Below, piece after piece: positions 8,407 to 56,754 of a stretch of DNA of 64,000 nucleotides (position 1 is its first letter; each line of letters starts with the position of its first letter). The stretch is from Natronococcus sp. AD-5 (lineage in GTDB: Archaea; Halobacteriota; Halobacteria; Halobacteriales; Natrialbaceae), in the NCBI RefSeq assembly GCF_030734285.1, contig NZ_CP132294.1, positions 62,001 through 126,000 of the forward strand, read 5' to 3'. A model generated the notes under the pieces. It was not told the DNA's origin. It saw nothing but the letters and a program-made list of their open reading frames with translations, and ran no database searches. The position numbers and the translations under genes were made by a program.

Positions 8407-8895
8407 ATGAGCGACCCAGCCGACGGGAACGCGGGGCTTTCGAGTCTTCGGACGATCGCGGACTACCAGTTCGGTGCCGGTGCGGGCGAGGCGCTCTTCC
8501 CGCTCGAGGAGTCGCTGACGGTCAAACGCACCTCCTCCGGCCGACCCCAGCAGGTCCACTGCGGGGCCGGTCGGCTCGTCTCCTTCGGCATCGATGGCCG
8601 ATTCACGCTCGGAATCGAGGGCGGGCGCCGACTCGACGCCGCCCTCGAGCACCCGGCCTACCGCGTGATCGTCGACGACGAGAGCGAGCCGTTCGTTCGC
8701 GACGGGAAGAACGTCTTCGCGAAGTTCGTCCTCGAGGCCGGCCCGGAAATCCGACCCGGTGACGAGGTCCTGGTCGTCCACGAGCGCGGCGAACTGATCG
8801 CGGTCGGGACGGCGGAACTCGACGCCGCGGCGATCGAGGATTTCGAGACCGGAATGGCCGTAAACGTGCGCGAAGGTACCCCGGCGGAGAACTGA
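8407..8895 (+). CDS. PUA domain protein
   Basis: A 162-residue protein with a C-terminal PUA domain, an RNA-binding module of tRNA- and rRNA-modifying enzymes. The PUA part spans about residues 80-155: AYRVIVDDESEPFVRDGKNV, then the glycine-rich RPGDEVLVVHERGELIAVGTA and a short final strand. The N-terminal half is a conserved archaeal extension I cannot assign to a catalytic fold. It lies upstream of NAC and trmI, separated from them by a structured repeat. A role in RNA modification or translation is inferred from the domain only. Confidence 0.82.
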   Translation: MSDPADGNAGLSSLRTIADYQFGAGAGEALFPLEESLTVKRTSSGRPQQVHCGAGRLVSFGIDGRFTLGIEGGRRLDAALEHPAYRVIVDDESEPFVRDGKNVFAKFVLEAGPEIRPGDEVLVVHERGELIAVGTAELDAAAIEDFETGMAVNVREGTPAEN

Positions 8896-8958
8896 GGCCC
8901 TGGCAAACGCCGTTGCTGTGGCCGGGAGCGTGGCTCGAGACGCTCGAGAGCCGCGTGA

Positions 8959-9157
8959 CCCGGGGAAGGGCAGGCCGCTTACCGAAACCTACCGCGAGAG
9001 CGTACCGGCGTGCGCTCTCGCGGGCCGACGACTGACTCGGAGTGAGTGAAACGCACGGAGAGGAAGGAGGTGTGCTTGATCAACCTTTTACCGAGGGGCA
9101 GCAGGCCCGTGACAGGAGTCCTGTCACGGGCGCGGAAGACCGCAGAGTAAAAGGTTG
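8959..9157 (+). repeat. structured intergenic repeat, copy 1
   Basis: A roughly 200-bp element also found at 17684-17878. Shared blocks in order: CCGGGGAAGGGCAGG, a hairpin, GCCGACGACTGA, GGAAGGAG, TTGATCAACCTTTTACCG, a second hairpin, and CGCAGAGTAAAAGGTTG. Hairpin 1 pairs 8992-9002 with 9013-9023 (11 bp, perfect). Hairpin 2 pairs 9106-9116 with 9120-9130 (11 bp, perfect) and is enclosed by a 10-bp outer stem, 9082-9091 with 9147-9156. The right end is 20 nt before the NAC start. A TTG-started 24-codon frame fits inside this copy but is broken in the other, so pairing rather than coding seems conserved. Confidence 0.8.
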
Positions 9158-9177
9158 CGGGTAGCGACGTGTCGGGT

Positions 9178-9558
9178 ATGTTCGGAGGAGGCGGCGGGCT
9201 CAACCCGCGCAAGATGGAACAGATGATGGAACAGATGGGGATCGACGTCGAGGACGTCGAGGCCGAGGAGGTCATCATTCGGACCGACGAGTACGACCTC
9301 GTCTTCAACGACGCCGAGGTCACGAAGATGGACGCCCGCGGCCAGGAAACCTACCAGATCATCGGCTCGCCGGAGCAGGTCGAATCCGGCGCGACGGGCG
9401 GCGCCGCGGCCGGTGCCGACGAGGAGGGCGGCTCCGCGATCCCCGACGAGGACGTCGAGATCGTCGCCACCCGCACGGGCGTCAGCGAGGACGAGGCCCG
9501 CGAGGCGCTCGAGGCGAACGACGGCGACCTCGCCGCCGCTGTCGAGGATCTCGAGTGA
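9178..9558 (+). CDS. nac: nascent polypeptide-associated complex protein
   Basis: Archaeal alpha-NAC homologue that binds the ribosome near the exit tunnel and contacts nascent chains as a homodimer. The 126 residues show the glycine-rich start [16 protein letters not shown], the NAC barrel (about 30-70, with [12 protein letters not shown] and GQETYQIIG), an acidic linker, and a C-terminal UBA domain ([17 protein letters not shown]). I prefer the ATG at 9178 over the GTG at 9169 because family members begin MFGGGG. trmI starts 7 nt after the stop, so the two are probably one operon. Confidence 0.95.
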
Positions 9559-17612: not shown

Positions 17613-17683
17613 CCGCTCGACACGCCCGATCCGAGGTATCGATGGCCGAGAGCGCGGCTCGAGCACCGCGAGAGGCGCGCGAT

Positions 17684-17878
17684 CCGGGGAAGGGCAGGTG
17701 ATTCACCGGTTCCGACCGCGAGCCTCGAAGAGGCGAGCGGGCCGACGACTGATGTGGAGGGCGCGTAGCGTCCGGAACGGAAGGAGGAGTCCTTTTGATC
17801 AACCTTTTACCGAGCGACAGCGCGACGTGCGACAGCAACGCTGTCGCCGTCGCGTCTCGAACGCAGAGTAAAAGGTTG
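17684..17878 (+). repeat. structured intergenic repeat, copy 2
   Basis: Second copy of the element at 8959-9157 with the same block order and orientation. Hairpin 1 pairs 17716-17726 with 17730-17740 around two central G-A mismatches. Hairpin 2 is a long stem at 17821-17854 (7 bp plus 7 bp with one bulged base). The outer stem pairs 17801-17810 with 17868-17877 perfectly. The hairpin sequences differ from copy 1 while the pairing is kept. It lies between convergent genes and ends 4 nt from the stop of the geranylgeranyl reductase, so it is not tied to a gene's 5' leader. Confidence 0.8.
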
Positions 17879-17881
17879 GTG

Positions 17882-19288
17882 TTAGTACTTCGGCTCCGCC
17901 CCGGTCGTCTCGTAAACCTGCTCCATCAGGTCGTCGCGGCGGTCCTGCCAGCTGTCGAGCGCGCCGGGGTGGGACGGGTAGTTCTCGTAGTGGGCGAGCA
18001 GTTCGTCGGCCCGCCGCTTCGTCCGGTAGAGGTTCCAGATGGTGCCCCAGTGGCCGCGGCTCTTGAGCAGGGCCTCGACCTTGAGCTTCGTGCCGATGTC
18101 CGTGCTCCCCGAATAGAGGGCTTCGGCGAGCTTGTCGCCGGGCATCGCCGCGAGCAGGCTCATCAGGTCGTCGACGTCGACCGCCGTCGAGAGGATGTTG
18201 TAGACGTCCAGCGCGGCGTACCGGGCGCCGAAGTGGTCCATCACGCGCTGGTTGTACCGCCAGAGGGTGGCCTCGCCGCAGTCGCCGGTCTCGAGCGCCT
18301 CGATCGCCTGGTCGGCGGCGTACTTGCCGGCGTAGGCGGCGCCGGCGATGCCGCCGCCGGTGGTCGGGTTGACGTGGCCGGCGGCGTCGCCCACGGCCAT
18401 GTAGCCGGGATGCACCGCGGAGTCGTACGGCCGACGGGTCGGGAGCGCGGCGCCGAGTTTGTCGTCGACCTGCGCGCCGTCGAACTCGGCGCGGTTCTCG
18501 AGGTCGCGCTTTAGGTCCTCGACGAGTTCCATCGGCTCCTCGGTCATCTGGAAGCCGAGTCCGGCGTTGATCTCCGTCTCCGTGCGCGGGAAGTACCAGA
18601 GGTAGCCCGCCGCCCGCTCGGTCGGCTTGAAGACGAGCGCGTCGGACCACTCGACGGGCTCCTCGACGGTGACGATCTCGCGGTAGGCCGAACAGAAGTG
18701 CGTGTAGTTGACGTTCGTATCGAACGTCGAACCCGAGAAGTCGACGTTGTCCTGCAGCACCGACAACGAACCGGCGGCGTCGATGACGATGTCGGCCTCG
18801 TACTCGAGGGGCTGGCCCTTTCGAATCGCCGTGACGCCGGTCACCCGGCCGTCGTCGGCCTGGGTGACGTCCTGAACGACGGTGTCGTAGTGGAGTTCGG
18901 CGCCGGCCTCGTCGGCCCCCTCGATGATCCGTTTTCCGTACTCCCAGCGGTCGATGACGGCCAGTTCCCCGGGGACGGGGATCTCGAGGACGGTGTCCTC
19001 CTGGGGGATCTCGAAGCGGCCGTGGTCGACGTCCGTGTTGGTGAAGGCGGGTTCGATCTGCGATTTCGGGATCGACTCGGGGAAGGCGTCGGCGCCTTTC
19101 AGCGCGTCCCCGCAGGCGATGTGGCCCGCTTCGTCCGCCGATTTGCGCTCGAGGACGACGGCGTCGTAGCCCTCGCGTGCGACGGTCGCTGCGGCGTAAC
19201 AGCCCGCGGTTCCAGCGCCGACGACGACCACGTCCGGGGATCGAGTCTCGGGTGTCGCGGCGGTGGCCGACTGCTCCTGCGTGCTCAT
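17882..19288 (-). CDS. geranylgeranyl reductase family FAD protein
   Basis: Flavoprotein that saturates the isoprenoid chains of archaeal lipids; digeranylgeranylglycerophospholipid reductase is the likely role. The 468 residues begin with an FAD Rossmann motif VVVVGAGTAGCYAAATVAREG-like at about 20-40. The second FAD motif HPGYMAVGDAAGHVNPTTGG lies near 325, and the prenyl-reductase feature YLWYFPRTETEINAGLG is present. The ATG at 19288 is taken because the extra upstream residues are not homologous. It diverges from the ferredoxin gene, a possible electron source. Confidence 0.88.
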   Translation of the reverse strand: MSTQEQSATAATPETRSPDVVVVGAGTAGCYAAATVAREGYDAVVLERKSADEAGHIACGDALKGADAFPESIPKSQIEPAFTNTDVDHGRFEIPQEDTVLEIPVPGELAVIDRWEYGKRIIEGADEAGAELHYDTVVQDVTQADDGRVTGVTAIRKGQPLEYEADIVIDAAGSLSVLQDNVDFSGSTFDTNVNYTHFCSAYREIVTVEEPVEWSDALVFKPTERAAGYLWYFPRTETEINAGLGFQMTEEPMELVEDLKRDLENRAEFDGAQVDDKLGAALPTRRPYDSAVHPGYMAVGDAAGHVNPTTGGGIAGAAYAGKYAADQAIEALETGDCGEATLWRYNQRVMDHFGARYAALDVYNILSTAVDVDDLMSLLAAMPGDKLAEALYSGSTDIGTKLKVEALLKSRGHWGTIWNLYRTKRRADELLAHYENYPSHPGALDSWQDRRDDLMEQVYETTGAEPKY

Positions 19289-19460
19289 ATCAACAGTGTG
19301 GATTCCACGGTAAGAAAACGTTTTATGTGCGATCCGGCGATCCGCCGGGGACAAAACCCGACCGTAGCTCGGAGTTCGGCCGGGTTTCGACCGGCGCCGT
19401 CGGAACCGTCACGGCGGATTGTAATAAAGAGTTTTAGTGGACTCTTTCGTATCATCCCGT

Positions 19461-55431: not shown

Positions 55432-56754
55432 CTACAGTTCGAACGCGTACGCGGCGCCCGGGCCGGGGGTGGCGCCCGGGTCGCGGGCGTCGTCGCCGAC
55501 GAGCGCGACGGTGCCGTCGAGCGCGACGGCTGCCCCGAACCCGTCGGCGCTGTCGGCATCTTCGGAGACGAGGTTCGCCCGCCGTCGCCAGGCATCGTCG
55601 TGCCGCTCGTATGCGTACGCCGTCCCCGTCCCGTCCGGGTCGGAGTTGCTATTGGGAGCGCCCACGAGCGCGGTGCCGTCCCCGACTGCAACCGCCGCAC
55701 CGAACCCAAGTTCGTCGCCGTCGGGCTCGAGGACCGCACGCCTGCGCCAGTCCCCACCCGAGCGCTCGAAGACGTACGCGGCTCCCGCCCCGTCGGTGGC
55801 GAAACCGCGGCGAGGCCCCCCGACGAGGGCGACGTCGCCCGCCACTGCGACCGCGGTGCCGAACTGGTCGGCGCTATCGGCACCCTCCGGTTCGAGATCC
55901 GCTCGTTGGTGCCACGTTCCGTCCGTTCGCCCGAACGCGTACGCGACGCCCGGTCCGTCACCCGGGGCGCCCACGAGTGCAGTCGCCCCGTCGAGCGCGA
56001 CCGCCGTCCCGAACCGGTCGTCGCCATCGCCGCTTTCGGGTTCGAGCGTCGCATGCCGGCGCCAGGTCTCGTCTGACCGCTCGAACGCGTACGCGACACC
56101 CGGTCCGTCGCCGGGAGCGCCCGCGAGCGCGGTCGTTCCGTCAAGTGCAACGGTCGTCCCGAACCAGCCCCCTGGGCTCCCGTCTTCCGGCGCCAGATTC
56201 GCCGGCCGGCGCCAGTTCCCATCCGCCCGCTCGAACGCGTACGCCGATCCGGACTCGAACCCCCCGGGACCGTCGTCGACGGGTGTCCCGACCAGTGCGT
56301 CGTCGCCGTCGAGCGCAACAGCCGCGCCGAACTCGACGTCCGCGCCGTCGTGATCCAGGACCGGCGCCGGGCGCCGCGACCAATCGTCGCCCGACCGCTC
56401 GAAGCCGTACGCCGCGCCCACGCGGTATCCGGTGTCGTCGGCGACGCCGGGGGCGCCCACGAGCGCTGCGCCGTCAGCGAGTGCGATCGCCGTCCCGAAT
56501 CGGTCGCCGCTCTCGCCGCTCTCCGGCGTCAACTCGGCGACGATCGCCGGTTCGTCGACTTCGATCTCCTCGGTCTCGTCGGCGTCTTCCGGCGTCTCCG
56601 TCTGCGGGCCCGTATCGTTCGTCCCTTTCTCGCCGTCGGCGGCGTCCGTCTCCCGGTCGCTCCTGTCCCCGACGCACCCCGCCGCTCCGATTGCCGCGAG
56701 AATCCCCCCGTATCGGAGGATGCGCCGTCGACTCGCGCTCCACTGCTTCATCAT
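55432..56754 (-). CDS. FG-GAP-repeat Tat lipoprotein, seven-bladed propeller
   Basis: 440 residues. N-terminus: twin-arginine type SASRRRILRYGG, a hydrophobic stretch and the lipobox cysteine C27 (IGAAGC), so an exported lipoprotein. A Thr/Glu/Asp linker follows (about 30-70). Seven repeats of about 50 residues each contain the core DRFGTAVALDGATALVGAPG or a close variant (first GDRFGTAIALADG, last DGFGAAVALDGTVALVG), a complete seven-bladed FG-GAP beta-propeller ending ...YAFEL. These propellers bind ligands or proteins on the cell surface. The gene has no clear partner; an unassigned open patch follows its 3' end. Confidence 0.9.
   Translation of the reverse strand: MMKQWSASRRRILRYGGILAAIGAAGCVGDRSDRETDAADGEKGTNDTGPQTETPEDADETEEIEVDEPAIVAELTPESGESGDRFGTAIALADGAALVGAPGVADDTGYRVGAAYGFERSGDDWSRRPAPVLDHDGADVEFGAAVALDGDDALVGTPVDDGPGGFESGSAYAFERADGNWRRPANLAPEDGSPGGWFGTTVALDGTTALAGAPGDGPGVAYAFERSDETWRRHATLEPESGDGDDRFGTAVALDGATALVGAPGDGPGVAYAFGRTDGTWHQRADLEPEGADSADQFGTAVAVAGDVALVGGPRRGFATDGAGAAYVFERSGGDWRRRAVLEPDGDELGFGAAVAVGDGTALVGAPNSNSDPDGTGTAYAYERHDDAWRRRANLVSEDADSADGFGAAVALDGTVALVGDDARDPGATPGPGAAYAFEL

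Follow-up and report, generated by a model that had tools for sequence, protein, structure and literature searches.

Two copies of a structured element in the window

The window analysed here—64,000 nucleotides from Natronococcus sp. AD-5—holds two copies of a non-coding structured element, the first between a PUA/TGT_C2 gene (8407-8895) and nac (9178-9558), the second between an M20 peptidase gene on its left (stop 17612) and, on its right, a convergent geranylgeranyl-reductase-family gene (17882-19354, minus strand; Pfam/NCBIfam). An earlier note, made from the letters of the sequence, had placed repeats at 8959-9157 and 17684-17878; both were confirmed, and both extend further left to a conserved boundary (GGCCGGGAGCG at 8920 in copy 1, GGCCGAGAGCG at 17644 in copy 2). 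The interval of 20 nt between the stem of copy 1 and the start of nac at 9178 was likewise as the note had it. Of the architecture that it had described, two hairpins plus an outer stem, the outer stem stands in both copies, but the two hairpins give way to at least four helical modules:

8920-9157 (+): copy 1, full element
8920-8974 (+): copy 1, module A, CCGGG-hairpin-CCCGG then GGGGAAGGGCAGG (aligned by eye)
8992-9023 (+): copy 1, module C hairpin, fully paired here, with tandem GA/GA interruptions elsewhere (sequence, fold)
9025-9075 (+): copy 1, module D, CCGACGACTGA/GAGGAAGGAGGTGTGC helix with tandem G.A pairs, which holds GGAAGGAGG
9081-9157 (+): copy 1, module F, CAACCTTTTAC (9081-9091)/GTAAAAGGTTG (9147-9157) outer stem around an 11-bp CCCGTGACAGG/CCTGTCACGGG hairpin (model R1, pair counts)
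9145-9157 (+): copy 1, right-arm end GAGTAAAAGGTTG, probably serving also as TATA region of nac
17644-17878 (+): copy 2, full element
17716-17740 (+): copy 2, module C, CCGC-GA-GCCTC-GAA-GAGGC-GA-GCGG, with tandem GA/GA (sequence, loop statistics)
17742-17796 (+): copy 2, module D helix, CCGACGACTGA ... GGAAGGAGGAGTCC, with TTTT directly after it (sequence, covariation)
17800-17878 (+): copy 2, module F stem-loop (outer stem 17800-17810/17868-17878), with a minus-strand T4 8 nt past the convergent gene's stop (17882-17884)

Only TT is left of the first T tract in copy 1. Against dinucleotide shuffles, the predicted folds scored z -5.1 (copy 1) and -4.4 (copy 2) as RNA, and -5.5 and -5.3 as DNA. 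R1, a covariance model built on the element's right half (41 sequences, 31 pairs), matched copy 1 at 9061-9159 (79.8 bits) and copy 2 at 17778-17880 (101.2 bits). Elsewhere in the window, seven direct repeats of ~85 nt with a spacing of 150-168 bp (55482-56526) probably belong to a repeat protein gene.

Modules, covariation and distribution

Across loci, the consensus modules read as follows on the element strand:

Module A: CCGGG-hairpin-CYCGG, then GGGRAGGGCAGG
Module C: CCGC-GA-GC-GA-hairpin-GA-GC-GA-GCGG
Module D: CC-GA-C-GA-CY-GA-hairpin-GA-RG-GA-G-GA-G-TGC, then TTTTGATC
Module F: CNACCTTTTRC-C-GA-GN-GA-hairpin-GA-N'C-GCA-G-M-GYAAAAGGTNG

Module A is common mainly within Natrialbaceae, other families retaining mainly D-F, and the left-end pattern GGCCGGG was present at 60 of the 78 loci of family f1. 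That pairing is kept while hairpin sequences change, as first proposed from the two copies alone, held across the 41 sequences, with 93.9% of pair cells paired, against only 33-44% in a slid-partner control, and with double changes in 22 of the 31 pairs. The CY/RG positions of module D covary (35 CT/AG, 31 CC/GG and 11 GC/GC among 95 loci), as do N/N' of module F (GC 29, CG 24, TA 7, other 4). The T4/A4 of the outer stem is near-invariant while neighbouring positions covary, but this invariance is partly ascertained, because the first loci were gathered with a TTTT-containing pattern that the model inherited; distance to the stop codon is the sole feature independent of that pattern.

Within the family, the core pattern had matches in 56 of 125 genomes, and a reversed-pattern control gave next to none. 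R1 found about 13 separate copies in the Natronococcus sp. AD-5 genome and matches in 192 of 392 Halobacteriales genomes (52 of 95 genera), while all 27 positive genomes in a phylum-wide sample of 295 were Halobacteriales. Since relatives carry copies and the pairs covary, neither of the two findings that the earlier note had named as counting against its proposal—no copies elsewhere, no covariation—was obtained. A search of open-licence literature turned up no description of the element, and the family is apparently undescribed.

At nac, the proposal of a structured leader with an internal initiation site was not supported: GGAAGGAGG is the purine strand of the tandem-G.A helix in module D, paired with GCCGACGACYGA, and the CY/RG covariation marks it as a helix strand, on which ground the Shine-Dalgarno reading was rejected. 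In the 30 nac loci read, a GTAAAAGG-like motif lies about 26-30 nt upstream of the ATG, at the same distance with or without the element; given this independence, the motif probably marks the TATA region of nac, in which case the element would lie mostly upstream of the transcript. Where nac lacks the element, the bases ahead of the motif (GACCGCAG or CGAACGACA) correspond to the right arms of two element variants, so that right arm and nac core promoter, judged also from the position of GTAAAAGG, coincide. The overlap reflects either remnants of lost elements or merging at a shared sequence. Five nac loci of genus g10 (L198, L202, L207, L208 and L217) have the element complete, right arm included, immediately ahead of a second copy of the ACCGCAGAGTAAAAGG promoter.

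Folding statistics and turnover of hairpins

Mismatches and loops were counted with a Watson-Crick-only hairpin finder at 181 loci; the hairpins are homologous, and the counts are thus not independent events. Isolated stem mismatches were divided evenly between G.T (29) and A.C (31), where a structured RNA would tolerate G.U over A.C. Three-base loops closed 293 of 400 hairpins, with C(GNA)G frequent and GNA triloops outnumbering TNC (110 vs 37), while tetraloops comprised two GNRA and no UNCG; internal loops were GA/GA in 211 cases and TC/TC in none. Flanking DNA, the control, gave 25% triloops, GNA and TNC at 33 each, and GA/GA and TC/TC at 42 and 31. Triloops made up 61-73% of Watson-Crick hairpins vs 9-14% when the same finder was run on 23S rRNA, or 47-53% vs 12-20% with G.U pairs allowed. 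The strand bias of the fold is independent of the direction of neighbouring genes, GA/GA loops numbering 1.53 per element at (-,-) loci vs 1.44 at convergent loci. The oligonucleotide d(GCGAAGC) is well known to form a compact DNA hairpin. PMC5430850 lists structures 1KR8 and 1PQT.

From the mismatch, loop and internal-loop counts together with the fixed strand, the statistics look like the outcome of a single fixed strand folding as single-stranded DNA, or of hairpin-templated mutation on that strand. Of the earlier suggestion of a functional RNA or REP-like element, the REP-like structure is upheld; the mismatch and loop statistics do not resemble selection on RNA. A structured RNA in mRNA 3' ends, or a small RNA, would account for the strong covariation, for tandem G.A pairs (stable in RNA too) and for a strand-specific fold that puts a hairpin before UUUU; we nevertheless consider it quite improbable, in view of the equality of G.U and A.C mismatches, the triloop excess over 23S rRNA, the scarcity of GNRA, and a fold retained whichever strand a gene would transcribe. 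Rfam gave no match in the 64-kb window at gathering threshold, and relaxing the cut-off to E 10 brought in matches at chance level only. No TATA-like or other promoter signal was found upstream of the element's left end, and an independently promoted RNA was dropped on that ground.

The same loops and fixed strand, with the sharp left boundary, would suit an element that is or was mobile through single-stranded DNA, like the IS605-derived PATEs that exist in haloarchaea (PMC3119063), and that later settled at gene ends. Hairpin traffic adds to this: particular hairpins reappear at different loci, some in flipped orientation, which suggests that modules are exchanged between copies, and variant elements at five loci (L006, L030, L031, L041 and L054) carry an extra multi-hairpin module, GTTCGAGACG...TCTCGAACGACAG, nested inside the F stem. 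The almost identical F hairpins of two diverging copies at L037 (G000:C1:2477850-2478816), separated by about 760 bp, suggest gene conversion between inverted copies. Set against mobility, none of the 16 TnpB-like loci of this genome coincides with an R1 copy; the best within-genome pairs, with overlapping loci set aside, are 72-92% identical over partial lengths; all 13 copies of this genome sit on the larger contig (P 0.057); and the same sites are retained across families. We therefore regard mobility as unlikely. Near-identical or fresh duplicates were absent within the genomes compared, except for a same-strand pair (L191:1501-1577 and 1677-1753) whose members score equally under the model at a spacing of 176 bp, possibly a recent tandem duplication. 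Viral contigs and phage collections gave no matches at the patterns used, and carriage by viruses or phages was dropped; a second plasmid search returned unrelated chance matches only. Some copies in named relatives lie on large secondary replicons.

Placement at gene ends and proposed function

Gene neighbours were assigned with codon-model gene calls. At 112 loci about 4 nt or less separates the right end of the element from the stop codon of an opposite-strand gene, and for 106 of these 112 abutting genes a T4 tract follows 3-10 nt past the stop; among background genes, T4 started within 0-9 nt in 32 of 286, with a peak at 5-9 nt here too. Convergent gene pairs are over-represented (71/173 loci vs 34/196 background; P 5e-7) and divergent pairs depleted (11/173 vs 57/196; P 7e-9). 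The right-hand gene ends towards the element in about 75% of loci; where it points away, a gap of mostly 30-55 nt with TATA-like sequence leads to its start codon, which sets the element at the promoter edge. Spacing on the left is looser. Among the element's neighbours in this genome are EngB, TbsP, thermosome, ribosomal protein L16, PolD large subunit, IlvE and an Lrp-like regulator, and the core genes EngB, TbsP, thermosome, PolD large subunit and acyl-CoA dehydrogenase recur as carriers across genera and families. One PolD large subunit beside a copy (L069:1-1497) has a LAGLIDADG-like domain, probably an intein. A pre-existing target site at stop codons was ruled out at the locus of copy 2, where the element-free L239 and L244 lack ACCTTTTAC.

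With modular hairpins on one fixed strand and T4 tracts on both, the element may be a gene-boundary element that acts as a bidirectional transcription terminator or insulator. A two-sided terminator at a gene boundary is the most economical function, and on the sequence evidence we give it a probability of about 0.5. An RNA polymerase exiting the abutting gene would run into CCTTTTAC no more than about 10 nt past the stop and terminate; one arriving from the other side would meet the tandem-G.A helix, then GCTTTTG, then CCTTTTAC. The hairpins would help to block read-through, formed either by the exposed strand as single-stranded DNA or by the nascent strand. Stems would turn over as whole modules, either by template switching at hairpins or by gene conversion among copies, and pairing would in this way stay perfect without wobble intermediates.

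Several observations sit awkwardly with a terminator: T4 is short, about 240 nt of conserved modules exceeds what termination needs, the fixed-strand fold is kept equally at (-,-) loci where termination does not require it, 11 of 173 loci are divergent, and the first T tract of copy 1 is only TT. The one-strand fold and the long modules leave some probability to readings based on a single-stranded DNA-binding protein or a mobile element. In a REP/BIME-like site for DNA binding or chromosome organisation, a protein of the nucleoid, of repair or of DNA topology would recognise a hairpin or cruciform; the multi-copy palindromes at extragenic gene 3' ends would fit, and conserved blocks that termination leaves unexplained (GGGGAAGGGCAGG, GATC) would find a role. 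With only about 1-22 copies per genome, no candidate protein identified, and T tracts and promoter-edge placement that such a site does not predict, we doubt it strongly.

The terminator and boundary reading extends, as a tentative and rather doubtful proposal, to an order-wide class of folded single-stranded DNA boundary elements with sheared G.A helices, GNA triloops, insulation and whole-hairpin swapping. The ending and insulation of archaeal transcription units have so far been described mostly by short T tracts. An element with DNA-type folding, retained at the same gene ends in several families of one order, would mark boundaries with a defined and testable signal and could serve haloarchaeal genetics as a portable terminator that works from both sides. 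It would also be a clear instance of covariation pointing to DNA structure or hairpin-templated mutation, not RNA.

Among known systems, the T-stretch terminators of Haloferax volcanii are alike in placing an intergenic T run downstream of genes, as at the 106 abutting genes here, sometimes with a hairpin upstream; a T stretch is a validated intergenic terminator there, 95% efficient in a reporter, and hairpins lie upstream of 503 termination sites, one tested hairpin giving 59% (PMC7237163). Those terminators are short tracts, whereas the element is a conserved modular unit of ~240 nt that has T4 on either strand and folds on a fixed one. PATEs of Haloquadratum are likewise non-coding, palindrome-rich, haloarchaeal and suggestive of single-stranded DNA, with palindromes near their ends, IS605-like ends and strain-specific insertions (PMC3119063); the element differs in having neither a TnpB association nor fresh or near-identical copies in the genomes compared. 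Bacterial REP/BIME sequences (PMC2817692) share multi-copy palindromes in extragenic DNA at gene 3' ends, no called gene covering an element at the 181 loci. Against the more than 100 copies per genome taken as typical of them, the element has far fewer (1-22 in the genomes searched), and it is set apart by its four-module architecture, its tandem G.A helices and sites shared across genera and families.
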